DNA from: Acetobacter fabarum | GTDB lineage: Bacteria > Pseudomonadota > Alphaproteobacteria > Acetobacterales > Acetobacteraceae | Length of the DNA: 64,000 nucleotides | Reading direction: 5' to 3' | Assembly (NCBI RefSeq): GCF_011516925.1 | Contig: NZ_WOTG01000001.1 | Coordinates: 372,001 to 436,000, forward strand | Shown here: positions 11,830-25,645 of the stretch, piece after piece | Numbering within the stretch: position 1 is the first letter of the stretch | Layout: every line of letters starts with the position of its first letter | Program-made: the position numbers and the translations under genes | The notes under the pieces: model-generated | What the model saw: only the letters and a program-made list of their open reading frames with translations | Told to the model about the DNA's origin: nothing | Databases searched by the model: none

Positions 11830-14013
11830 GTGCCCAGTCTTTCTTTTCCCCTGCTTGACAGGATCGGTCGCCTGCGGGCCTTCCGCCCGTTAGGGCCGCC
11901 GGGTGTGCAGAGCAAACTGCCTCTAAGCTGGCTGCTTGCCCCCACACCATCCGCAATAGGGTTTGCCCTGCGCACAACCGCGGCCGCCCTGATAGCGCTG
12001 GTCATTGCCCTGTGGATGGAACTGGACGACCCGCAATGGGCCGCCATGACCGTATGGATCGTGGCACAGGGCTCACGCGGGGAGAGCCTTTCCAAGGCAC
12101 GCTGGCGTCTGGTGGGCACAGGCATTGGGGTGGTCATGTCCATCACCCTTATTTCGGCCTTCAACCAGACCGCGTGGCTGTTTTTTCCCGCATTGTCCAT
12201 CTGGCTGGGGCTATGCTGCGGGCTGGCAACCCTTGTGCGCAACTTCCGCTCCTACGCGCTGGTGCTCGCGGGCTACACAACGGCCATTATTGCCATAGGG
12301 GCCATCCCCCACCCCGAAAACGTGTTCATGACCGCCATGTCCCGCGCGACTTATATTGTGCTGGGCATTGTGTGTGAAAGCACGGTTGCAGGCCTTTTTG
12401 CCCATAATCTGGCCGAGACCGCCCGCCGCAACATCCGCGACAAGCTCCGCACGGCCCTGAGCAACGTATCCGAGGCCGTAGCCAGCCTGCTGGCCGGGGA
12501 TGATGAAGCGCTTATCCGCTCACGCGCCATGTTTGGACCGATTCTGTCCATTAACGACCAGATTGAATTTTCTGAAGCCGAGATGGGCCCCCATGGGCAT
12601 GAAGGGGACCACGCCCGCGCAGCTCTTGCTGCGGTTTCGGTCCTGCTCTCACGCGGGTTGGGCATGACCGTGCGCCTGCAATACGTCCAGACCGACCAGC
12701 CCATATTCCGCGAGACGGCCTCCAACGTCAGCACTTTTCTGAGCAGCCTGCCTAACCGCCTGAACACGGAAACCGGGGTGCGTGGCATTCTGCGCGACCT
12801 GCAACTGCTCCGTGCCGAATGCCACCAGCAGATTGTGGATGCCCTGACGCACGAAATCGGGTCCGCCTTTACGCTGGAAGACGAACACGACCAGATTTCC
12901 GCCCTGCTGGACGGGCGAATTCTGCACAACGCCATGGACGAACTGCTGGGTGAGCTGGAACAGGCCATTCGGGAATACGATGCCAGCCAGCACTTTATTC
13001 GTGGTGACCACTTCCACTTCCGCCTTCAATCCCATGTGGACAAGCGCGAAGCCGCCTATAACGGCGTGCGTGCTGCCGTGGCCCTGAGTGCCGCCGGGCT
13101 GGTGTGGGAATGCACGGCATGGCCCACGGGCCTTGGCTTTATTACATTTGTTGCCATTGTGTGCGGGCTGTTTGCCACGCGGGAAAACCCGGTTGTTGCC
13201 ACCACCCAGTTTATGATCGGTGGCATATGGGCTGCTCTTGTTGCGTTTTTTCTGGTCTTTTTTGTCCTGCCCACACAATCCAATTACGAAATGCTGGTCG
13301 CCACGCTGGCCGTGCCCATGTTTGCCGGCGGGCTGGCCGCACGCAACGCCAGCACGGCCCTGCACTCTGCCGCCTATACCCTTTTGCTCCCCAACTTTGT
13401 GCACCCGCTCAATCAGGGCCGGGTGGATGAGGTCACATGGTTCAATTCCACATGGGCCATTCTGCTAGGCGTATTTTTTGCGGTTCTTATTTTCCGCGCC
13501 GTGCTGCCCTTTAACAGCGCAGCCGAACGCTGGCGCATGCGCCGGACCCTGCTGCGGGACCTGCGTACACTGGCTTCGGCCGAGCCCACCCCCATGACGC
13601 GGGACTGGATTGGCCGCAATATTGACCGCTTTGCCCGCCTGATCCGCCATGCTGGCCCCACACCTTCCCCCACCATTGAGGGCTGTCTGCAGGGCACACT
13701 GGCTGCCATGACCATAGGGTTGAACATTATCCGCCTGCGTGCGCTGCTGCACCGCAACCAGATCCCCCCCGCAGCGCGCCGGGCCATAGAAATTGTCATG
13801 AAGCGGATGAGCCATTTTACAGGCAAATATGGCCACACAGCCCATGCCGCCCGTGTGGCAACCACCGCATTACGCCGGATGGAAGCCGCCGAGCCCAACA
13901 TTTCCACCCGTATTGAACTCACCCGCGCGATTGCCTACCTGATTGTGGTTTCCCACGAGCTGGATGCCAATGCCGTGTTCCTGGATGCCACGCGCCCTTA
14001 CCGTGCTGTTTGA
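11830..14013 (+). CDS. FUSC-family exporter (aromatic acid efflux type)
   Basis: A 727-residue inner-membrane protein of the FUSC family (fusaric acid resistance / AaeB type). It shows two similar halves, each with a cluster of hydrophobic helices: one at about residues 35-190 with MELDDPQWAAMTVWIV and GIGVVMSITLISAF, another at about 415-560 with LGFITFVAIVCGLFATRE and PTQSNYEMLVATLAVPMFAGG. Hydrophilic domains of 200 and 160 residues follow each. Family members export aromatic carboxylic acids with a membrane-fusion partner, but no such partner is next to it. The start is a GTG; no strong ribosome site is seen, so a different start is possible. Confidence 0.85.
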   Translation: MPSLSFPLLDRIGRLRAFRPLGPPGVQSKLPLSWLLAPTPSAIGFALRTTAAALIALVIALWMELDDPQWAAMTVWIVAQGSRGESLSKARWRLVGTGIGVVMSITLISAFNQTAWLFFPALSIWLGLCCGLATLVRNFRSYALVLAGYTTAIIAIGAIPHPENVFMTAMSRATYIVLGIVCESTVAGLFAHNLAETARRNIRDKLRTALSNVSEAVASLLAGDDEALIRSRAMFGPILSINDQIEFSEAEMGPHGHEGDHARAALAAVSVLLSRGLGMTVRLQYVQTDQPIFRETASNVSTFLSSLPNRLNTETGVRGILRDLQLLRAECHQQIVDALTHEIGSAFTLEDEHDQISALLDGRILHNAMDELLGELEQAIREYDASQHFIRGDHFHFRLQSHVDKREAAYNGVRAAVALSAAGLVWECTAWPTGLGFITFVAIVCGLFATRENPVVATTQFMIGGIWAALVAFFLVFFVLPTQSNYEMLVATLAVPMFAGGLAARNASTALHSAAYTLLLPNFVHPLNQGRVDEVTWFNSTWAILLGVFFAVLIFRAVLPFNSAAERWRMRRTLLRDLRTLASAEPTPMTRDWIGRNIDRFARLIRHAGPTPSPTIEGCLQGTLAAMTIGLNIIRLRALLHRNQIPPAARRAIEIVMKRMSHFTGKYGHTAHAARVATTALRRMEAAEPNISTRIELTRAIAYLIVVSHELDANAVFLDATRPYRAV

Positions 14014-14250: not shown

Positions 14251-15261
14251 TTAATGGGCTTCAACATCATGGAAGCGGGTGTAATCCACCGTAATGCGCC
14301 CATCGGGGCGGGAGAGCACAATATCCACAAAGCGATGGTTATGCTGCACCCGGTCAAACCTGTATGCGGTTCTTGCAAACACGGTCTGGCCCAGAGCCTC
14401 GTCCGTACCGGTCACTGTGACAATAATCTCGGCTTCCTCGCCTTCGAGTTCAGCAACCGTTTTGCCATGCAAGGGGCTATCTGGCGTAATGACGTGCGCC
14501 ATGACAAAGGCAAAGCGCAGCACCGGCACATGGGATTGCATAAGCAGAAGCTGGTCAAACTTGCGGACCAGATGGCCATTATCGCTCATGACCAGACGGG
14601 ACAAAGCCACTTCAATATCGACCGATAAAATCACGCTCATCCGCAAATTGGCAATGCGGATGCACAGGGCGGGTATTCCCCCTTCGTTACTAATGACGGC
14701 TATGTTGCTGAACATCAGTCTGGCACGGGGGCGGGCAAAACGGGCAAAAACCACGCCCGTTGCAAGGGCTGTCAGCATCATACCGACAAACACCTCGATC
14801 GAGACAATGGCATTGGCATAAGCCCCGATCGGGCTCATGGTCCCGTACCCCACGGTCGAGAGTGTTTGCACACTAAAAAAGAACAGGGACAACAACGTAC
14901 CGTGCGAGAGTCCCGTAATCTGGTTCGGGGCCACCATGTACAGCAACGCAAAAACAAGGTTGAGCACAACGTAGGATACAACGGCAATGGCAGCAAAAGC
15001 GGGCCAGCTTGCCGTAAGTGCATGGTGGTAAAGGTCACTCCATACGCTGTCCTTCAACCCTACGCGCACAACATCGCGGTGGCTTTTTTCCTCAACCAGC
15101 GCATGGGCGCGAAAGCGCCTGACCGCCTCCTTGGTACTTAAATGAAAACGCCCCCCTTCCTTACCACTGGGTCTGGGGGCAACATTTTCCAGCTTGGTGT
15201 GGCGCTCTGCCTCCACTTGACGGCTGCGTTTTCTATAATGGTGGAAAAGTCTTTTCATCAT
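14251..15261 (-). CDS. inward-rectifier-type potassium channel (KirBac family)
   Basis: A 336-residue KirBac-type channel. Seen in order: an N-terminal slide-helix region (VWSDLYHHALTASWPAFAA), the outer helix, a pore helix and selectivity filter SVQTLSTVGYGTMSP, an inner helix with glycine hinge (EVFVGMMLTALATGVVFARFARPRARLMFS), and the cytoplasmic Kir beta-sandwich domain with LCIRIANLRMSVILSVDIEVALSR and HVITPDSPLHG. KirBac channels pass K+ and are gated by lipids and pH. There are alternative starts at 15264 (GTG) and 15258 (ATG); a GGAG lies 5-8 bases upstream of the ATGs. It is monocistronic, behind a long leader region. Confidence 0.93.
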   Translation of the reverse strand: MMKRLFHHYRKRSRQVEAERHTKLENVAPRPSGKEGGRFHLSTKEAVRRFRAHALVEEKSHRDVVRVGLKDSVWSDLYHHALTASWPAFAAIAVVSYVVLNLVFALLYMVAPNQITGLSHGTLLSLFFFSVQTLSTVGYGTMSPIGAYANAIVSIEVFVGMMLTALATGVVFARFARPRARLMFSNIAVISNEGGIPALCIRIANLRMSVILSVDIEVALSRLVMSDNGHLVRKFDQLLLMQSHVPVLRFAFVMAHVITPDSPLHGKTVAELEGEEAEIIVTVTGTDEALGQTVFARTAYRFDRVQHNHRFVDIVLSRPDGRITVDYTRFHDVEAH

Positions 15262-15648
15262 CACCGCTCCGCGCGCACAGCCGGGCAGACGGGCTTGCGC
15301 TTGTTTGCGGTGTTACACAGCAAGGCAGGGTCTGTGCTCCATGGATTATGCATGGAAGACCTGCTTAACTTGCGATTATTTTTTAGGTGTCATGCTTTTT
15401 CAAGCAAATGGAACAAAAACACTTCTCAAGTGCTGTGTATAACACACCATAACTTGATACCCTGCCTTACACAGCGCCTGTATTCCCTGCTGCAATAGAT
15501 ACAGCACCAAGCGCGCGATACCGTAAGGAATAGGGCGTAGGAGCACCCACCCACTCATGCCTTGCGGGCAATGCAGCTTATGCCAATGGCAGCACAGGGT
15601 GCATGGCTTTCTGGCAGACCAGTAACGCCATGCACCAAAAATAGCTGG
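15262..15648. other. intergenic region between KirBac and the MCE lipoprotein gene
   Basis: No gene is supportable in these 387 bases. The AT-rich part near 15360-15460 is the likely KirBac promoter region and contains a small perfect dyad, TGTGTATAACACA (15434-15446), and CACTTCTCAAGTG just before it. A long inverted repeat lies at 15597-15636, just past the lipoprotein stop. Confidence 0.6.
15597..15636. repeat. 40-bp inverted repeat after the MCE operon
   Basis: GGTGCATGGC (ending at 15607) is matched exactly by GCCATGCACC (15627-15636), and the loop itself contains CTGGCAGACCAG, so the transcript can form a two-part hairpin. It lies 13 bases beyond the stop of the last gene of the MCE operon but has no T-run after it in that direction, so an mRNA-end-stabilising or Rho-related role is more likely than intrinsic termination. 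Confidence 0.6.
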
Positions 15649-16584
15649 TTAAGGTGCGTTCTCGGTTTCTGCAAAGGGTCTGAGCACAATATCACCCGCA
15701 CTGCGTGCCCATGCCCGAGCATCATCCGCTGGTGGCGTGGCATTGCCTTTGGTCAGGCTACCATGGACCAGCGTTTGCGCATCCATCCGGTTCAGGCTGC
15801 CAGATTGTGCGGCTGCACTCTGCGCGGCCCGTGCCCACAAGGCATGCGCCTTGGCCTGATCCCCCTGACTGGCAGCAATCCGCGCGGCAAGGGCAAGTGT
15901 CCGCGCCATGTCGTGATATGCGGCCTCACCCTGACGCAGGTTTGCTGCTTCCTCCGCCTGCTGTTCGGCCAATGCGGGGTTGGAGTGACGGAGCACGCGG
16001 GCCTGAATCTCGGCTCGGTCGGCCTGCTGTGCCACGGAGAGCGGCTGCTTAAGCCCGCTCAAATAAGCCCCGGCGGCCTGAAGAGCGCTTTGGTCGCCCT
16101 GTGCATCGGCGGCAAGGCCCAGCACAAGGGCAGCCCGTGCGGCAACACCCGTATCGGCGGAGCGCATGGCCTGCTGCGCCAGAGGAATAGCCTGCGCGTA
16201 ATGGCCAAGCCGGTAATGGCTTGCCGCTTCAACCAGATCGAGCGAGGACATATCCTGCGCACCGCGTAACTGCACTGCCTGACGTGTGGCCTGTGTTGTC
16301 TTCAACGCGTCATCCGGCGTGTTGGCGGCCAGTTGTGATACTGCGAGGTCGTACCCGGCCTCAGCCACGGCTGTTCCATCATCACGCACAATGGCAAGGT
16401 TGGCGGCTTTGCGGTACTGGGATACGGCCACCGTGTAACGCCCCAGTTCAAAGGAATCCCGGCCGGCCATCATGGCCTGATCCCACGCGGCATCATCCTG
16501 CGCGGTGGGTTTGCTCTGGCTGGCCCCGCACCCGGCCACCAGCAGCGGGGCTGCTAGCACCAGCATGTGTGCAAGGCGTCTCAT
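15649..16584 (-). CDS. TPR-containing lipoprotein of the MCE operon
   Basis: A 311-residue predicted lipoprotein: signal MRRLAHMLVLAAPLLVAGC with Cys19 at the lipobox, then alpha-helical repeats of TPR character, such as FELGRYTVAVSQYRKAANLA, HYRLGHYAQAIPLAQQAMRS and GDQAKAHALWARAAQ. It replaces the position of MlaB/MlaC-like partners in known Mla operons and could be the periplasmic or outer-membrane partner of the MCE protein, by analogy with PqiC or other MCE-associated lipoproteins, although its TPR make-up differs from PqiC. Its ATG overlaps the stop of the MCE gene by four bases, so it belongs to the operon. Confidence 0.8.
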   Translation of the reverse strand: MRRLAHMLVLAAPLLVAGCGASQSKPTAQDDAAWDQAMMAGRDSFELGRYTVAVSQYRKAANLAIVRDDGTAVAEAGYDLAVSQLAANTPDDALKTTQATRQAVQLRGAQDMSSLDLVEAASHYRLGHYAQAIPLAQQAMRSADTGVAARAALVLGLAADAQGDQSALQAAGAYLSGLKQPLSVAQQADRAEIQARVLRHSNPALAEQQAEEAANLRQGEAAYHDMARTLALAARIAASQGDQAKAHALWARAAQSAAAQSGSLNRMDAQTLVHGSLTKGNATPPADDARAWARSAGDIVLRPFAETENAP

Positions 16585-17531
16585 GGCCGCACCTGCTGGG
16601 GTGCCAGACGTTTATGGTGTGTTACCTTATGCCCGCCCAGCAGCCACATCCCGCGCAACTGGTCGGTCAACTGCTGCAAGCCGTAGAGTGTGGTCTGGGC
16701 CTGTGCCAGCATGGCAGGCAGGTCTGCCGTACTGGCTTCCACATTACTAGCAATGGCTGGCAGGTGCGGCGTTGCGTCCTTTACATCCTTGGTGGCGGAT
16801 TTGAGGTTGCCCATGGTGGCATCTGTTTTGCTCATGATCCCCGAAACCTGTTTTTCAATCGGCTTGAGCCGTTCGATCACAGCATCCAAAGAGGCAATAG
16901 TGGCTTCAGACTGGCGGATAAGCTGGTCATTGGTCATCAACTGCCCGATTGTGCCCTTGCCCGCGTGCATGTCGGTAATGGTGCCGTCCAGCTGGGCCAT
17001 CATATGTCTGGCACTGGCCAGCGCGGGCATGATTTCGGCCTGAATACTGTTCAGGGTCGCGGTAATCTGGTCTGCGGGGTTGGGCGCCGGTGTGGCCGAA
17101 ATAACGGCATAGCTCCAGTCCATCGGGTCCCCATGCCCGCGGCTGAGGTCCAGATAGGAAGCCCCCGTTACAATAAGCTGCTTACGGATAAGGGCTGTGC
17201 TGTCCCGCCGGACAAAAGGCTTGGCCTGTGGGTCAAGGTCAACCATGGCATACATGTTACCAGATGGATTGAGCTTGATGCTGCGGATGGTGCCCGCATG
17301 CGCCCCCATAAGCTGTACGTCCCCGCCTACGGTCAAACCACCCACGCCAGAAGCGGGCAGCACAACGCGCAGCCGTGCGGGTGGGGTCAGCCAGTCACGC
17401 AGCACACCTGCCTCGATAACCGCGCCCCCAAAAATGAGTATGCTCAGAAGCACAAGAAACCCGACCCATTCATCTGCATAACGCAGGGAAATGAGGGGTT
17501 TTACTTTCTGTCGTAAGCGGAGTTGGAACAT
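16581..17531 (-). CDS. MlaD-like MCE family protein
   Basis: A 316-residue MCE protein. It has one transmembrane helix (about residues 22-43) and then the MCE beta-barrel domain, recognisable from ARLRVVLPASGVGGLTVGGD and VQLMGAHAGTIRSIKLN, with the distal part DSTALIRKQLIVTGASYLDLSRG. A long helical C-terminal part (about 165-300) with heptad-like sequence resembles the coiled coils that form tunnels in larger MCE proteins. MCE proteins hexamerise to carry hydrophobic lipids between membranes. It starts in the TAATG overlap with the ABC-like gene and ends overlapping the lipoprotein gene. Confidence 0.92.
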   Translation of the reverse strand: MFQLRLRQKVKPLISLRYADEWVGFLVLLSILIFGGAVIEAGVLRDWLTPPARLRVVLPASGVGGLTVGGDVQLMGAHAGTIRSIKLNPSGNMYAMVDLDPQAKPFVRRDSTALIRKQLIVTGASYLDLSRGHGDPMDWSYAVISATPAPNPADQITATLNSIQAEIMPALASARHMMAQLDGTITDMHAGKGTIGQLMTNDQLIRQSEATIASLDAVIERLKPIEKQVSGIMSKTDATMGNLKSATKDVKDATPHLPAIASNVEASTADLPAMLAQAQTTLYGLQQLTDQLRGMWLLGGHKVTHHKRLAPQQVRP

Positions 17532-18232
17532 TATCCCATCCGTACTGCTACAAGACCATCATCTGCAAGCCGCCAGGTTGCCGTAATACCCTGCCGATAT
17601 TCCTGCCAGACTGCGTTATTCCTTACCAGCCAGATAACCCCGGCACCCCTGTCGCGCGCCTCGGTTATTGCAGCCAGAAAAGAATTGCTCAATTCTGCCG
17701 GACCGCTCTCAAGCGGGTCTTCCAGCAGTAACAAATGGGGCCTTCCCAAAAACGCCCGCACGCAGCTTGCGCGCAAAAGGTCATCCTCGGGTAAAAAACT
17801 GGGGTTCTGTGTTGGCAGACCGGGCAGGCCAAAACTTTCCGCCAGCCGGGCAGCATCATGCACCAGATCATCAATCGGGCGGGTTGTGTGGTGCAACTGC
17901 TGCAACACGATTGCCAGATGCACCGGCACAAATTCGGGCCAGCTTGCCCGGTGCGTCACACGCCCGATACGCCCGCGCAGGGCGTTGAGTTCCCGGTCGC
18001 CCAGATCGGCCCAGTCCAGCCCCATAAACCGCACAAACCCATCATCCAGCGGCACAAGCCCACAGCACAGGTCCGCAAACATGGTGGCGTGCCCTATGTC
18101 GCGCGCTTCCACCACCATGCAGTCTCCGGGCATCAGCTTCATGCTGAACGGAACCGGCGGCAGCCCGCTCTCATCAAACGATGGAACGGCCTTGTTCAGT
18201 TCAAGCAGGGGGCCGGAAGCGTACACATCCAT
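17531..18232 (-). CDS. MlaF-like ABC ATPase homologue with degenerate catalytic motifs
   Basis: A 233-residue protein that aligns by eye along an ABC ATPase but has lost the motifs needed for ATP turnover. The Walker A loop is EARDIGHAT (residues 42-50), with His at the lysine position and Ala at the Ser; the Q-loop residue is His94; the signature reads LPEDD (147-151) instead of LSGGQ; the Walker B region is LLLLEDP, with E and D in swapped order; and the H-loop is VRNN (203-206). Fold markers remain: PGDCMVVE, GLVPLDDGFVRFMG, ELNALRGRIGRV and CVRAFLGRPHLLLLE. It lies between the permease and MCE genes, one base from one and overlapping the other, exactly the MlaF position. The frame is intact and codon use normal, so this is a conserved-looking pseudoenzyme rather than a pseudogene. 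Confidence 0.82.
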   Translation of the reverse strand: MDVYASGPLLELNKAVPSFDESGLPPVPFSMKLMPGDCMVVEARDIGHATMFADLCCGLVPLDDGFVRFMGLDWADLGDRELNALRGRIGRVTHRASWPEFVPVHLAIVLQQLHHTTRPIDDLVHDAARLAESFGLPGLPTQNPSFLPEDDLLRASCVRAFLGRPHLLLLEDPLESGPAELSNSFLAAITEARDRGAGVIWLVRNNAVWQEYRQGITATWRLADDGLVAVRMG

Positions 18233-18233
18233 C

Positions 18234-19133
18234 TTACAGATCCAGACTGAACAGAACGCTCACCACCATCACAATCAGCATCCCGCGGGAAAAGCCGCGG
18301 GGCAGCAGGGTGCGTAGTGAATCCTCGTTTGTGGCGGTCAGCCCTGTTAGGCAGCCGCCCAGCCCCACCACAAACCCGACAGTAATGAACTTGAGCGGGA
18401 TAATAACGTAATCCGTACCGGACATGGCTGTTGCCACATCATCCAGAAAAGCCCAGACGGGGTTGTTGATCACTCCGGACATGCGGCTCATCACATACCC
18501 CGTCACAAGGGATGCGAACGAGAACAGGATACCCAGCGTAAACCCGGCCACGGTAAAAGCCAGCGTACGCGGCAGCACCAGCAGCAAAAAGGGGTCTATG
18601 CCCACAGCCTGCATGGAGCGGATTTCCCCCCCGATGCTCAGCAGCCCCAGTTCCGTGGTGGAGAGCATACCGTTACGCCCCAGCAGGAGCACACCCACCA
18701 GAATGGGCGCTATTTCGCGCACGACAATATTGATCAGGATTGAGCCGGTCATGGTGGCAAGCCCGGTCAGCCCCAGCCAGTAAATAACCTGCGACACAGC
18801 GGCAAGCCCGGTCAGCACCCCGGCAAACATGGTGGCAACAAGCCCACCACGGATAATGTTGTTCATGGTGCTGATAAATTCGTAACGGACTGTCCGCCGC
18901 CATGAATGCGCGCGAAAGCTCTCGAAGATCACTCCCCAGGATGCGCCCAGCATAATGAGCAGAAAACGCGCCTGCCTGCGCGTAAGCCGCCCGATCCATG
19001 CCAGCTTGCCAAGCCCCCACTGAACGGGTGCGAACAGCCTGCCCTGCCCTGTCTGCCCGGCAAGCACGGGGTCGCGCGTTGTATCGGTAGGTGGCGGGAG
19101 CGGCTGGGGAGCCTGCTGGTCGGTCTCACTCAT
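18234..19133 (-). CDS. MlaE-family ABC lipid transporter permease
   Basis: A 299-residue MlaE permease. After a Pro-rich 35-residue cytoplasmic head come an interface helix and five transmembrane segments. The family motif is clear: NIVVREIAPILVGVLLLGRNGMLSTTELGLLSIGGEIRSMQAVGIDPFLLLVLPRTLAFTV, matching the EREIAPVLTALLLAGR...EL..M...EQIDAL region of MlaE, with Glu conserved in TELG and EIRSM. MlaE dimers sit beneath an MCE hexamer and are driven by MlaF. The start overlaps the upstream receptor gene (ATGA), giving translational coupling. Confidence 0.93.
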   Translation of the reverse strand: MSETDQQAPQPLPPPTDTTRDPVLAGQTGQGRLFAPVQWGLGKLAWIGRLTRRQARFLLIMLGASWGVIFESFRAHSWRRTVRYEFISTMNNIIRGGLVATMFAGVLTGLAAVSQVIYWLGLTGLATMTGSILINIVVREIAPILVGVLLLGRNGMLSTTELGLLSIGGEIRSMQAVGIDPFLLLVLPRTLAFTVAGFTLGILFSFASLVTGYVMSRMSGVINNPVWAFLDDVATAMSGTDYVIIPLKFITVGFVVGLGGCLTGLTATNEDSLRTLLPRGFSRGMLIVMVVSVLFSLDL

Positions 19134-21448
19134 CGGCGGGCTGCCAGCGTATAGGCACGGCCAAGGCCCAGATGCGGCACAAAGAAGGAGCCACGGCTGC
19201 GGAACAGGTAACGGTCACGCAGGTTGGTATAAACGCGCTCCGTAACCTGAATGGTACCGGGGTCTATCGCACTTTCGGCCATCAGCTCGGCAAGGGAGAC
19301 TGTCTGCCCCCACAGGTTGAACACCGTTGGCAACTGCCCCACGGCGCCACCAAATGCGGGGCCAAAATCCATACCCATAGTAAACACGGGTTCCAGATCG
19401 GCCGCAGCCAGCACGCCCATAAATGTTTCACGCATTTTAAGGGCGGCATTGGCCAGACGCACCAGTGCTGTGGGGTCCGGCTCTGTTGTGCAGCCTGCCA
19501 TACAGATCATGCGGTGCCCGGCCACTTCCACCGCAAACAGGTGCTCTTCCTGTGCAACGCTCTGGACCTGTGTGGCCAACTGGTTGATCAGGGCGATCAG
19601 GGCTGCGGTTTCCTTGTTCCCTTCCACTACGGGGTCGGAAAAGCTGACAACGAGCACGGCAACAGAGGGGTAAATACTCGCACCTGTTACGTCCGCCATT
19701 TCATCTGCCCGCATCAGCAGATTATCGGACATAGGCGTGCCAGTGACCGCCACAGGAGCAGAGGTTTTGCTGTCTGCCACGGGTTTCTGCTGGGCTTCCA
19801 GCGCATCCTGCGCGGCAAAGCGTGTACCCGCAATGCTGGCCATGAGCTCTACAAAATAGAGCAGATGCGGCAGCATGACCGGGTCTTCCAGCGCAAGCAT
19901 ACCCAACGTGCCATGAGGGCCATGCACAGGGTACACAGCAAGTGCGCGCGTACTGACCTCACGCATGACCAGCCGCTCAAACCGTGTCGTACGTTCATCC
20001 GTTGCAGCATTACTGACGGAGAAGGAAGACCCTTCCTCTATGGCATCAAAGAACTTGCCCAGTTCCTCCCGCCCCATTTCAAACCCGCCGGAATGGGTGT
20101 TCTGGGTCCGGTCATAGGTATCATCACACACCATGGCGGCACCATCGTGCAGGAAACGCCACAGGCTGGCACGGCGTGCACCCGTAACCTGCGCGAGCTG
20201 TTCCGTAAGCACCAGCGCATCGGCCGCAGGGTCAAACAGGTGCGGCGCTACAGCCACCTGCTGCAAAGCACCACTTTCCTGCGCGACCTGAGACTGCTGG
20301 ACCGCAAGCCTGCGGTTGCCTGCTTCCGTCCGGCGCAACTGGCGGATGTAAAGTGCCCCCAGAAGGAGCGAAAACACCGTAACAATCCCCGCGAACTGAA
20401 GGCTTTGGCGGCTGCTCTGGTGCGCAAAGCTGCCAAAATCGTTTTCAGGGGCGGCAATCAGCAAAATCCAGCCCTGCGAGTAACGCGGCAAGGCGGAGGC
20501 CATGGTAATATAGGTCTTGCTATCCCACTCCACGTGCTTGGGGCCAAAGCCCCGCACCCGGTAATGGTCGTACCCCAAGGCAAAAACCGGGTAGATTTTG
20601 GGATCCAGCACCATTTTGTCCGGGTCCCAGCCTGCGGCTTCCGCGTGCTGGGTAAGGTTACGCCCTGCAATCACCCGTCCTTCACCATCCACAATCATGG
20701 CGCTGCCGGACTTGCCGATTTTGATTTTATCCAAAAACGCGCTCAGCTCATTGAGCGAGATATTGGTAGCAAACACCATTTCGTGCCCGTCATCACGCCG
20801 GAAGCGGAGCGAACTGGTCATGACAAACTGTTTATCGGTCGGGAACAGGTAAGGCTGAGTCCACTGGATGGTGTCTTTGCCAGCCGTGTTTTTGTACCAC
20901 GGGCGCACGCGCGGGTCGTAATCACCGGCGGGGGCATCATACTGCCGGACCTGCTGCCCCGCGGTATTGAAAAGAACATGATGCAGAACTTTTGTGCCAC
21001 CCGGCTGCGTAACAAGGCGGACATGGTCCAGCACGTCCTTGTCGGGGGAGCGGGTGATCAGCGTAAAATTACCCTGATCATCGGCCAGATAAAAAGACTG
21101 CAACTGCGGAATTTTTTGCAGCATAACGCTGCCGTAGGAATAAAAGACCTTGTCCGACACCAAAGGCGGGGCATGTTCGATCATGCCTGCGGCAATCAGG
21201 TTTCCGGCGGCGGAAGGCGCAATATAGTCCCCCACTTCCTGCCCGATATAGTGCTGGGTTGCCTCCATAAGCTCACGCGTGAGAACAGAGACACCCTCGC
21301 GTGTGGTGCGGTATGAACTGATGCCCACCCACGCAATGGCCCCAACGGTCATGATGATCAGCACAAAGGGGAGGACCATGTGCAGCAGCACCCGCCGAAC
21401 GGATGCATTGTGCTGAACTGTCGGGTCTATGATCTCTTCAGAAGACAC
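19130..21448 (-). CDS. dCache-GAF receptor with a degenerate class III cyclase domain
   Basis: A 772-residue transmembrane receptor. Order: first helix (about 20-44); periplasmic dCache sensor (about 60-330) with the diagnostic YDPRVRPWYKNTAG; second helix (about 352-370); a GAF-like domain (about 400-545); and a C-terminal class III nucleotidyl cyclase homology domain (about 593-770) containing GMDFGPAFGGAVG and NLWGQTVSLAELM. The catalytic residues are largely lost: Asp605 of the first metal site remains, but the second metal Asp is His645 (VAGHRM), the purine Asp is Gln715, the transition-state Asn is Ser718 and the Arg is Leu722. It most likely signals by conformation, not by making cAMP. 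GTG start. It is the first gene of the MCE operon, overlapping the permease gene by four bases. Confidence 0.85.
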   Translation of the reverse strand: MSSEEIIDPTVQHNASVRRVLLHMVLPFVLIIMTVGAIAWVGISSYRTTREGVSVLTRELMEATQHYIGQEVGDYIAPSAAGNLIAAGMIEHAPPLVSDKVFYSYGSVMLQKIPQLQSFYLADDQGNFTLITRSPDKDVLDHVRLVTQPGGTKVLHHVLFNTAGQQVRQYDAPAGDYDPRVRPWYKNTAGKDTIQWTQPYLFPTDKQFVMTSSLRFRRDDGHEMVFATNISLNELSAFLDKIKIGKSGSAMIVDGEGRVIAGRNLTQHAEAAGWDPDKMVLDPKIYPVFALGYDHYRVRGFGPKHVEWDSKTYITMASALPRYSQGWILLIAAPENDFGSFAHQSSRQSLQFAGIVTVFSLLLGALYIRQLRRTEAGNRRLAVQQSQVAQESGALQQVAVAPHLFDPAADALVLTEQLAQVTGARRASLWRFLHDGAAMVCDDTYDRTQNTHSGGFEMGREELGKFFDAIEEGSSFSVSNAATDERTTRFERLVMREVSTRALAVYPVHGPHGTLGMLALEDPVMLPHLLYFVELMASIAGTRFAAQDALEAQQKPVADSKTSAPVAVTGTPMSDNLLMRADEMADVTGASIYPSVAVLVVSFSDPVVEGNKETAALIALINQLATQVQSVAQEEHLFAVEVAGHRMICMAGCTTEPDPTALVRLANAALKMRETFMGVLAAADLEPVFTMGMDFGPAFGGAVGQLPTVFNLWGQTVSLAELMAESAIDPGTIQVTERVYTNLRDRYLFRSRGSFFVPHLGLGRAYTLAARR

Positions 21449-21619: not shown

Positions 21620-23110
21620 TCAGACCGCCAGTTCCACCTCAAACCGGGTTTGCACACCCAGCGCCTGACCAAGCCGGTCCAGCCCGCGCCGCACGCTTTC
21701 GCCCTTTACGGCAACACGGGTGGAGGTCAGGGTCAGCACCAGTTCCGCCCCATCCCATGCCAAAGATGTGCCCTCCAGCAGGCTCCCTGCCCCGCCGGAC
21801 AGCGAATAGGCCAGACGCAACGCCAGACCACAGGCCACGGCATCGCGCCGCTCCTCATCACTCAGCAGGGTAAAGGACGGCATAAGAGCGGGCGCGCTCA
21901 TATCCACCGAATAGCGCACGGCCAGCGCCAAAGACAGCCAGACACGCGCGCGGTGGTCAAACCCTGCCCCCTGCACACGCAAAATCCGCAGGTAGGTCTG
22001 CTCGGCCCGGTATTCCGGGTGGTCGTGGCTGCCAATATCGGACAGCCAGCAGGCTATGCGGCGCAGGTGCTGCTCTTCTGCCGTTTCGTTCGGTTTGATG
22101 CAGCCTGTCCATGTCCACAGGATTTCAGGCAGGGTGTTGCTGCGGCCAAAGCGTGCACACATGTCGCGTGCAACACTTTCCATCGGGTCCTGAGGCAGAT
22201 AGCTGGGGGCCACGTTCATCATGTACCAGCCCTCACGCAGGCCATCCACGCAGAACACGATCTTGCTGGGCTGGATTTTTTTCATCAGCCTGCGCAGGAC
22301 CACAGCGGCAAAGGGAATATCATCCAGCCGTTTGCGCGGCGCACCGGGCAGGCGCTCAAGGCTGCGGCGGGAGCTGTTCTGGAGCCAGCCGGTCATCTCA
22401 CGCGCTTCCTGCACGTCCAGCGTGTAGTAGTGCACAATATTCAGCGGGTACTGGGTGCGTGCAATCTGTAGCCGCGCGAGCGCACGGAACGCCCCCCCGA
22501 CCAGATAAAGCGGCTGCCCCCGAACTCTGGACAGCCATTCAACGCCATCAATGTCCTGATCGGTCAGTTGTTTGGCAACGTCCAGATCCCCCTCGCACCG
22601 ATCCGCCAGACGGATCATGCCCAAGGGCAGGGTTGTGGCATCATGCCGTCCGGTTTCGGTCAGGTGAATAAGTTCGAGCGACCCGCCCCCAACATCGGCT
22701 ACCAGCCCATCTGCTCCGGGAATACCGCACATTACGCCAATGGCGGAATGGTCAGCCTCCTCCTTGCCAGACAGAATACGCACCGGCACGCCGGGCATGC
22801 TCTGGCGCAGCATTTCCACAAAGGCGGGGCCATTTGTGGCGTCACGCACGGCAGCCGTGGCCAGCACCTCAAACGGGTCAGCCTGCATGGCACGCGCAAT
22901 GGCATGAAAACGGCTGAGCACCTCCATGGCCATGCCCACGCCCTCATCATTCAGGCGACCTGTGGTGGTAAGCCCACGACCAAGCCGCAGCACGGCCTTT
23001 TCGTTAAAAATGGGCAGCGGGTTGCGCGAAACCCCCTCGAACACAACCAGACGAACCGAGTTGGACCCAAGATCAACCACCGCTGAACGACGCTGCATGT
23101 CCGTCTCCAT
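21620..23110 (-). CDS. ppx: Ppx/GppA exopolyphosphatase
   Basis: A 496-residue exopolyphosphatase/pppGpp phosphohydrolase. The ASKHA phosphate loops are visible as AVVDLGSNSVRLVVFEG near the N terminus and VADVGGGSLELIHL near residue 145, and the catalytic GKEEADHSAIG lies between them. The C-terminal half is the HD-like domain usual in the long form (RRIACWLSDIGSHDHPEYRAEQ). It degrades polyphosphate made by the kinase encoded 90 bases upstream on the same strand, so synthesis and breakdown are likely cotranscribed. Start at 23110; 23098 is also possible. Confidence 0.93.
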   Translation of the reverse strand: METDMQRRSAVVDLGSNSVRLVVFEGVSRNPLPIFNEKAVLRLGRGLTTTGRLNDEGVGMAMEVLSRFHAIARAMQADPFEVLATAAVRDATNGPAFVEMLRQSMPGVPVRILSGKEEADHSAIGVMCGIPGADGLVADVGGGSLELIHLTETGRHDATTLPLGMIRLADRCEGDLDVAKQLTDQDIDGVEWLSRVRGQPLYLVGGAFRALARLQIARTQYPLNIVHYYTLDVQEAREMTGWLQNSSRRSLERLPGAPRKRLDDIPFAAVVLRRLMKKIQPSKIVFCVDGLREGWYMMNVAPSYLPQDPMESVARDMCARFGRSNTLPEILWTWTGCIKPNETAEEQHLRRIACWLSDIGSHDHPEYRAEQTYLRILRVQGAGFDHRARVWLSLALAVRYSVDMSAPALMPSFTLLSDEERRDAVACGLALRLAYSLSGGAGSLLEGTSLAWDGAELVLTLTSTRVAVKGESVRRGLDRLGQALGVQTRFEVELAV

Positions 23111-23200
23111 TACCAGCCATTCCCGGGCAGGCCATTATGCTGCCCGGCAGTATGAAAGTGCACAGACATACGCGACATATGGGAAAAAGAAACCCCGTTT

Positions 23201-25510
23201 TCAGTCATCCAGCATCAGGTCTTTGGTCTGGGAGAGGGAGGCCGGGGCTCTGCTCAGGCTTTCATGGGCTGCGGACCCCCGCCCGGAAAGGGAGGGATGG
23301 GTCATGAACCATTCATGGGCGGAGAACGGTTTGGAGCCAGCGCCAAGCCGGCGCCATACTCCATTCTGTTCCAGTATCCACGACTGCAGGGTATCGCGGA
23401 TATTGGATACCATAATCTGGTCCAGCACCTGCGCGTGCACGGTGGGGTTGGTAATGGGCACCATGCTTTCCACCCGCCAGTCCATGTTACGGGTCATCCA
23501 GTCGGCGGAGGAAATGTAAACCTTGGCATGGCGCGATGGCAGACGGTGGCCGTTGCCAAAGGCAAAAATGCGCGAGTGTTCCAGAAAACGGCCAACAACG
23601 GATTTGATCCGGATATTTTCTGAAAGTCCGGCAACGCCGGGGCGCAGGCAGCATATACCGCGAATAACCCCCACAATCTTAACCCCGGCGCAGGATGCAC
23701 GGTACAGGCAATCAATCAGGTCCGCATCGACCAGCGCATTCATTTTCAGCCAGATCGTACCCGGACGCCCCGCTTTGACATGCGCGATTTCCTCCTCGAT
23801 CAGGTCCTTGAGCGTGCTGCGGATGGTAATGGGGGAAAAGGCGATTTCCTCCATCTGTGCCGGCATGGCGTAGCCGGTCACGTAGTTGAACAGCCGCGCC
23901 GAATCCCGCGCAAGCGCCGGGTTGCAGGTAAAGAACGACAGATCGGTATAAATACGCGCCGTAATGGGGTGGTAATTCCCCGTGCCAAAATGGGCGTAGG
24001 AACGCACCTGCGCTCCCTCCCTGCGCACCACGAGGCTAAGCTTGGCATGGGTTTTAAGGTCGGCAAAGCCAAACACCACCTGCACACCGGCGGCTTCCAG
24101 CGCACGGGCGAGGCGGATATTGGCTTCCTCATCAAAGCGCGCTCGCAGTTCCACCATAGCCGTGACCGACTTGCCTGCCTCTGCTGCCTCGATCAGCGCC
24201 TTGACGATGGGGGAATCGCGCGATGTGCGGTACAGCGTCTGCTTGATGGCAATAACATTGGGGTCCAGCGCAGCCTGACGCAGGAACTGCACCACCACAT
24301 CAAAACTCTCAAACGGGTGATGAACCAGCAGGTCCTTGGCCCGGATGGCAGCAAAGCAGTCCCCGTTAAAATCGAGTATCCGCTCAGGGAAGCGCGGCGT
24401 GTAGGGCGGGAAGAGCAGGTCCGGCCGGTCATCCACGATCATCTGCTTGAGGTCCGCCACCCCGATCATGCCTGAATGGACGGCAATTTCGTCCGATGGC
24501 AGGTCCAGGTCAGAGGCAATGGCTTCGGCCAGCTCGGCGGGGACGCGCTTTTCCATGTCCAGATGGATAACCACCCCACGGCGGCGGCGCTTGAGTGCGC
24601 TTTCGTAGGAGCGAACAAGGTCTTCCGCCTCGTCCTCAAACTCCACATCCGTATCGCGCACAACACGCAGCACACCGCTCTCGCCCACAACCAGCCCGGC
24701 AAACAGCCGGTCAATGAACAGGGAGATCAGGTCTTCCAGACGAATAAAACGCACGCGGGCAGGCTCGCCCGCAACGGCCTCACCCGTGGCAGGCAGGCGA
24801 ATAAAGCGCTCAACCTGTGCAGGGAGCAGGATAAGGGCGTTCATGGCGAACAGGCCCGTGCCCTCGTACAAAAGGCGCAACCCCAGAGCCAGCCCCATGT
24901 TGGGAATAAAGGGGAGCGGATGGGCCGGATCGACCGCAAGCGGTGTCAGTACAGGGAAAATGCGATCCATGAAGCAGGTTTGCAGCCACTCCCTGTCCGC
25001 ATCGTTCAGATCCTGCGTTTCGCATAGTGTGACGTGGGATTTGGCCAGCAGGCCGCGCAGCTCTACCCATATCCGCTGCTGTTCGCGCAAAAGGCGGGCA
25101 CAGCGCTCGCGCACTGCATCCAGCTGCTGGGCAGGCGTGCGGCCATCGGGGGAGATGGTGGTCAACCCTTCACGGATCTGGCCAACAAGCCCTGCCACAC
25201 GCACGGAATAGAATTCGTCCAGATTACTGGCGCTGATGGACAAAAAGCGCAGCCGTTCCAGCAGCGGGTTCCGGGCGTTGTCCGCCTCCTCCACCACGCG
25301 CTGGTTGAAATCGAGCCATGAGAGTTCGCGGTTGATAAAGCGCGAGGGCGTTTGCAGGGTAACTTTGGGTTCAGCCACCTTTTTGGCACGGGTGCTGGCC
25401 GCAGTCCGTGTGCGTGAAGGTGCCCGCTTGGCGGGCGCACGTGTACGACTGACGGGGGTTGTATTCTTTTTATCCTGTGCCGCCACTAGCCTGCGCTCCC
25501 TCTCCTGCAT
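23201..25510 (-). CDS. ppk1: polyphosphate kinase 1
   Basis: Ppk1 makes long-chain polyphosphate from ATP. The protein (769 residues from the ATG at 25510) has a basic Lys/Arg/Ala-rich head of about 50 residues, then the N-terminal domain [21 protein letters not shown], the head domain, and two phospholipase-D-like catalytic halves. The catalytic histidine lies in [16 protein letters not shown] and the second phosphate-site motif is [21 protein letters not shown]. The reported upstream start at 25525 is a TTG; the ATG is preferred. It lies between hda and ppx on the same strand. Confidence 0.95.
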
Positions 25511-25645
25511 TATCTGCCCCGGCAATCCGACCGATCCGAGGGCCGCACCAAACCGGATACACCGTCAACATATCCCAAACACGATGGCCCCGGAATGTTC
25601 GGGGGCGTCAAATCGCCATCATGTCATAAAACTGAAATATTCCTT

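Follow-up and report, generated by a model that had tools for sequence, protein, structure and literature searches.

What can an ATP-binding cassette (ABC) protein contribute to a lipid transporter when every motif by which such proteins bind and hydrolyse ATP has been replaced? The question is raised by an operon of Acetobacter fabarum in the 64,000-nucleotide stretch of contig NZ_WOTG01000001.1 that was analysed here (positions 372,001 to 436,000; hereafter, the window). Five tightly packed minus-strand genes, at 15649-21448 of the window, encode a receptor, a permease of the MlaE type, an ABC protein in the position of MlaF, an MCE protein and a lipoprotein (Table 1). A sequence-only reading of this DNA had described the third as an MlaF-position protein with all ATPase motifs degenerate, and our alignments, together with 404 rows of its family, confirm that description; we refer to it as the pseudo-NBD (NBD, nucleotide-binding domain). 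The reading that we favour, at a probability of about one half, is that the pseudo-NBD is a dedicated, non-hydrolysing NBD acting as scaffold or gate of an MCE transporter that is not driven by an ATPase of its own.

Motif loss within an ABC fold

In an alignment with the two intact MlaF proteins of the same genome, Ala49 of the pseudo-NBD occupies the position of the Walker A lysine, and His48 replaces the preceding Gly; the sequence-only reading, which had placed His at the lysine itself, was one residue off. Its remaining assignments are borne out: the Q-loop Gln is replaced by His94, the Met/Gln of the signature by Asp151 (in LPEDD), the Walker B Asp by Glu171 and the catalytic Glu by Asp172 (in LLLLED), and the H-loop His by Arg204 in the VRNN region. 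Judged by these residues, every defining catalytic feature tested (Walker A, signature, Walker B with its Glu, and H-loop) is absent, and the pseudo-NBD is predicted to be without the capacity for usual ATP binding.

The ABC NBD fold is intact in the structure model, whose alignment to MlaF (6xgz) spans residues 4-230. The model ends at 6xgz residue 230, and the C-terminal extension of MlaF, which forms the "handshake" of MlaFEDB in an excerpt of PMC7367683, is missing; the pseudo-NBD has 233 amino acids, compared with 267 and 264 for the MlaF proteins of the genome. No Pfam family was assigned to it. The Pfam ABC_tran model was reached by 15 of 109 family members at E ≤ 1e-3, and among 35 members the FtsE profile matched 35, LolD 26 and MlaF 22, with the window protein scoring far under the FtsE cut-off. 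The closest named record, from Acetobacter lovaniensis, has 97% protein identity.

Conserved replacements and purifying selection

The family alignment comprises 404 rows, namely the window protein, 99 locus sequences and P0001-P0304, including one translated locus. These rows contain close relatives and repeat genomes, and the residue picture is unchanged in a thinned set of 311. The Walker A Lys is present in none of the 404 rows, nor is GK[ST]; the lysine position is most often Ala (189 rows) or Gly (137). Asp is found at the signature Gln/Met position in 383 rows, and the Walker B Asp position is Glu in 386 and Asp in 6, so that the alterations of the window protein extend over the whole family. 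Glu stands at the catalytic position in 39 rows, and the canonical His of the H-loop and Gln of the Q-loop in 10 and 48 rows, respectively. Across the 311 thinned rows, Arg86, Gly138, His115, Trp74 and Pro140 are near-invariant, whereas they vary in 30 canonical MlaF proteins, a comparison set picked for having the motifs. The release of the catalytic positions while others became fixed points to a new constraint and not to decay.

The motifs are also missing in all 16 named Acetobacter records that a protein search found. For 14 of these, the ratio of nonsynonymous to synonymous substitution rates (dN/dS) was calculated against the window gene; it is 0.06-0.18 in 13, and one comparison is saturated. 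These values are similar to those of the permease and cyclase genes, and the MCE gene has the lowest dN/dS of the operon in all 13 genomes with a value. The pseudo-NBD gene is under purifying selection, and the earlier claim of a maintained pseudo-ATPase inside an MCE operon holds family-wide. An orthologue with GKST and LSGGQ, which the sequence-only reading had named as the mark of a decayed window copy, was not found among the matches listed in three protein searches (the best 120 of 485, the best 120 of 338, and all 97 matches); about 8,000 candidates were scored in the 338- and 97-match searches. In the 97-match search, the last pseudo-NBD has an E value of 4.4e-28 and the next matches 3.5e-11 or weaker, and GK[ST] is present in 31 of the 32 matches beyond that gap. 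The exception, P0315, is a distant ABC protein outside the family that has no Walker A, reads SDED in place of the signature and has a Glu in Walker B; it is possibly a second degenerate lineage.

The permease and its coupling helix

The permease keeps the fold and the conserved core of its family in both structure model and sequence. The coupling helix, which mediates the MlaF contact in MlaE (excerpt of PMC7790496), is different: canonical MlaE proteins typically read T[DN]QIDAL, and the permeases linked to a pseudo-NBD typically GG[QE][IVL]R. At the position that is Asp in 30 of 31 canonical MlaE proteins, 69 of 85 family permeases have Arg, and 77 of the 85 have Gly where all 31 carry Asp, Asn or Glu. 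The altered helix suggests a docking surface matched to the pseudo-NBD, which would then be a dedicated partner. The permease and the pseudo-NBD travel together: each of the 39 genomes of G000-G149 with a permease match also has the pseudo-NBD, and class-wide searches with either protein gave the identical six genomes. A permease/pseudo-NBD fusion (P0227) was considered as a sign of fixed partnership and rejected, its junction reading out of frame as a frameshift look-alike.

Distribution and conservation of the locus

The pseudo-NBD is spread across the acetic acid bacteria and was found in 46 of 150 sampled genomes of Acetobacteraceae, and members with all five genes occur in two other families of the class (one with G391, the other with G706, G911 and G939). 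A class-wide profile search matched 6 of 385 genomes. No more than 7 candidates per genome were scored in the class search and no more than 14 in the phylum search, which makes the negatives of both weak. True members score 250-300 bits, whereas ordinary NBDs reach at most 89 bits; by this gap, most of the 67 genomes tallied in the phylum search are not members, and members are present in 3 of the 200 genomes of that search and in 3 of 39 from the family of G706. One member, P0284, carries the label of a Desulfobacterales assembly, far from Alphaproteobacteria.

Gene content was scored in 117 locus entries with a pseudo-NBD, several of which are overlapping views of one genome. All five genes are matched in 68 entries, 46 are without only the TPR match, 2 are without cyclase and TPR, and 1 is without MCE and TPR, its sequence stopping at the pseudo-NBD. 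Many of the missing TPR matches reflect fetched stretches that stop too soon; L093, L095 and L097 are long enough and have no match at the cut-off, and L032, L088 and L099 have weak matches below it, which means that the TPR gaps are overstated. The order and strand of the matched genes agree in all 117 entries, permease and pseudo-NBD are together in each of them, and the pseudo-NBD lies between the MlaE-type permease and the MCE gene in every locus long enough to show it. At L102, in genome G126, the operon copy is broken in several genes, and the canonical MlaE match of G126 is split in two pieces.

The receptor and its cyclase domain

The upstream gene, which the sequence-only reading did not mention in its finding, encodes a receptor whose Guanylate_cyc domain (PF00211) scores 57.9 bits against a cut-off of 21.9; no other class III cyclase domain was found in the genome. 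The six positions that we take to be responsible for metal binding, substrate binding and the transition state read S, E, H, N, S and L, and the second metal Asp aligns with His in a comparison with a solved bacterial adenylate cyclase. Of 79 distinct cyclase rows, 1 has the second metal Asp and 1 the Asn; the Arg is retained in 5 and the substrate Lys in 20, so that the Lys position alone is no proof of inactivity. The substrate Asp position is Asn in 76 rows and Ala in 3. The first metal Asp is Ser in the window receptor, and Asp is not among the ten commonest residues there. The domain is apparently catalytically dead, a second case of catalytic-residue loss within one operon. At L088 and L092, either a transcription-repair helicase-like gene of divergent orientation or a solute-binding-protein-like gene, both assigned by eye, takes the place of the cyclase gene.

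Operon layout

The receptor and permease genes overlap by 4 nt, the permease and pseudo-NBD genes are 1 nt apart, the pseudo-NBD and MCE genes overlap by 1 nt, and the MCE and lipoprotein genes by 4 nt. The permease (PF02405), the MCE protein (PF02470; 42.8 bits, cut-off 25.1) and the dCache, GAF and cyclase domains of the receptor are above Pfam cut-offs, and the lipoprotein has only TPR matches below them. Neither MlaB nor MlaC was assigned by Pfam to the five open reading frames filling 15649-21448, the rest of the genome not having been searched. The earlier description of an "otherwise complete" MCE operon was off in this detail. No other ABC NBD turned up in the window when 219 open frames with 120 or more codons were searched with profiles. 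Neighbouring genes encode an inward-rectifier potassium channel-like protein (14251-15264, minus strand; IRK_C, Ion_trans_2), a FUSC-family protein (11830-14013, plus strand) and, upstream of the operon, proteins of the Ppx/GppA phosphatase type and polyphosphate kinase (21620-25525, minus strand).

Table 1. Features of the operon, in window coordinates
Feature	Position	Strand	Basis
dCache-GAF receptor with class III cyclase domain lacking catalytic residues (apparent pseudo-cyclase)	19130..21448	-	Pfam, alignments
MlaE-type permease	18234..19133	-	Pfam PF02405, structure model
Permease coupling helix, residues 170-176 of the model, EIRSMQA (canonical MlaE typically QIDAL)	18606..18626	-	alignment, model
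Pseudo-NBD, ABC ATPase fold, 233 aa, every nucleotide motif replaced	17531..18232	-	alignment, predicted fold
Former Walker A region, residues 44-51, RDIGHATM; Ala49 at lysine position	18080..18103	-	
Q-loop position, His94	17951..17953	-	
Former ABC signature, residues 147-151, LPEDD; family tendency LS[ED]xD	17780..17794	-	
Former Walker B, residues 167-172, LLLLED; Glu171 at Asp position, Asp172 at catalytic Glu position	17717..17734	-	
H-loop position, Arg204	17621..17623	-	
MCE (MlaD-type) protein, 316 aa; MCE domain at residues 55-132, then a long tail	16581..17531	-	
Putative lipoprotein, weak TPR matches under Pfam cut-offs; lipobox LVAGC read by eye	15649..16584	-	

Comparison with known systems

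By the family domains of its permease and MCE protein, the system belongs with the Mla/MCE transporters. Compared with MlaFEDB, it is without ATPase motifs and without a MlaB or MlaC gene among its five, and it has an altered coupling helix and a cyclase-like receptor in the operon. NBDs with altered catalytic residues are also known from degenerate-site ABC heterodimers such as CFTR, TAP and TM287/288, in which one of two sites is active and Walker A is usually retained; in contrast, the only NBD of this operon is without any motif. MCE systems without a dedicated ATPase domain exist in PqiABC and LetAB, where, in excerpts of PMC10897342 and PMC12436622, PqiA is said to be related to LetA only and to have no ATPase domain; the pseudo-NBD system differs in retaining a MlaE-type permease and a motif-less NBD fold. 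The mycobacterial Mce permeases share MceG, and Mce1N competes for the NBD site (excerpt of PMC10517005); there, however, YrbE1A/B-MceG hydrolyses ATP, and Mce1N, a membrane protein, is no NBD. In the chimeric Mla-Pqi system Mpc of Brucella, too, a single complex unites proteins of the MlaE, MlaF and MCE types with a fourth, MpcA, but MpcF is described, in the excerpted part of PMC12436622, as an MlaF-homologous ABC ATPase in a well-conserved transporter. The sequence-only reading knew of no described Mla system of this kind, and we likewise saw no description of one among the papers listed in searches of open-licence PubMed Central.

A non-hydrolysing NBD and its alternatives

If the pseudo-NBD is a dedicated scaffold or gate, a dimer of the MlaE-type permease would have two pseudo-NBDs on its cytoplasmic side and an MCE ring on its periplasmic side, an assembly and stoichiometry proposed by analogy with MlaFEDB, and the lipoprotein may occupy an outer site of the complex. 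The pseudo-NBD would keep the permease dimer together and would probably relay a regulatory state, most likely from the upstream dCache-GAF pseudo-cyclase receptor, to which the transporter would then be linked. Lipid is the presumed substrate, and its direction of transport is conjectural; it would follow a gradient, or be powered by something besides the pseudo-NBD, and no ATP would be used. Passive, proton-motive-force-driven and unidentified-ATPase modes are discussed for PqiA (excerpts of PMC10897342 and PMC12436622). The MlaF variants K47A and E170Q fail to complement an mlaF deletion of E. coli (excerpt of PMC7367683), and, given the failure of K47A, a protein with Ala or Gly in place of that Lys should be unable to drive a Mla pump.

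A more far-reaching version, which we regard as tentative and rather doubtful, is that evolution has remade a lipid transporter of the ABC type to run without ATP. The two NBDs would be catalytically dead by design, the transporter would be set by an extracytoplasmic receptor with a dead cyclase, and the two pseudoenzymes would make up a protein-only path gating passive or otherwise driven lipid flow through the MCE tunnel. The common Arg/Gln/His of the old P-loop, the Asp of the signature and the Glu of Walker B would then make protein contacts in place of the ATP sandwich, locking the NBD dimer into a single state.

Several observations weigh against a dedicated, ATP-free complex with the receptor as its partner. 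The window genome has two further MlaE loci, each with an intact MlaF alongside, and another MlaE-type match, whose MlaF could serve the permease, is present in all 42 genomes tested (38 of the 46 family positives, eight being left out, plus four others; an intact MlaF beside these matches was looked at in 31 loci). As every tested genome has such a match, the search for a genome without one does not discriminate for or against a borrowed MlaF. The cyclase gene is missing in L088 and L092, from one genus, where more than 4 kb upstream holds unrelated genes, and about 1 kb lies between cyclase and permease in L105; the cyclase is therefore a frequent and not an obligatory partner. The chief rival explanation builds on the sister operons: by analogy with the shared MceG, the permease may be powered by a canonical MlaF from another Mla operon, with the pseudo-NBD as a regulatory or competing subunit or as half of a heterodimer. 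This explanation, for which the two intact MlaF-MlaE pairs and the 42 genomes speak, has to account for a coupling helix altered in a conserved manner, including Asp to Arg, and, in its heterodimer form, for the loss of a Walker A that inactive subunits usually retain, and we consider it unlikely on balance. Of the options raised in the sequence-only reading, transport without ATP hydrolysis is favoured because of this conserved alteration of the helix and the family-specific near-invariant residues of the pseudo-NBD, and a second ATPase encoded elsewhere is compatible with the other MlaE-type matches.

The loss of catalytic residues from both nucleotide-using domains of one operon, one of them the sole class III cyclase domain found in the genome, would also fit an assembly that mainly senses and signals, in which receptor, pseudo-cyclase and pseudo-NBD pass an envelope-lipid signal through protein contacts. 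We regard this as improbable, as the permease and the MCE protein retain recognisable family domains, the former with its fold and core, the MCE gene has the lowest dN/dS of the operon, and two genomes of one genus are without the cyclase gene at the locus. Still less credible is an active ATPase with unusual motifs; it could appeal to the intact ABC fold and to the members that match ABC_tran, but the positions of the catalytic Glu, the H-loop and the Q-loop vary freely, and the P-loop lysine is in no row. Gene decay or sequencing error, for which the broken copy in G126 (L102) is the one point, is ruled out by the motif loss in 16 Acetobacter records, the low dN/dS and the family-wide replacements.

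Significance

Whether MCE systems need ATP, and in which direction they move lipid, is debated. The "ATP-binding protein" names that databases carry appear to be wrong for the whole family. The family is a natural experiment in which a MlaE permease and an MCE protein are kept with an NBD that has no ATP site, in cells that also have intact Mla systems; a comparison of the two kinds of system within a single food bacterium that is genetically tractable would tell what the NBD does as a structural part from what it does as an engine.
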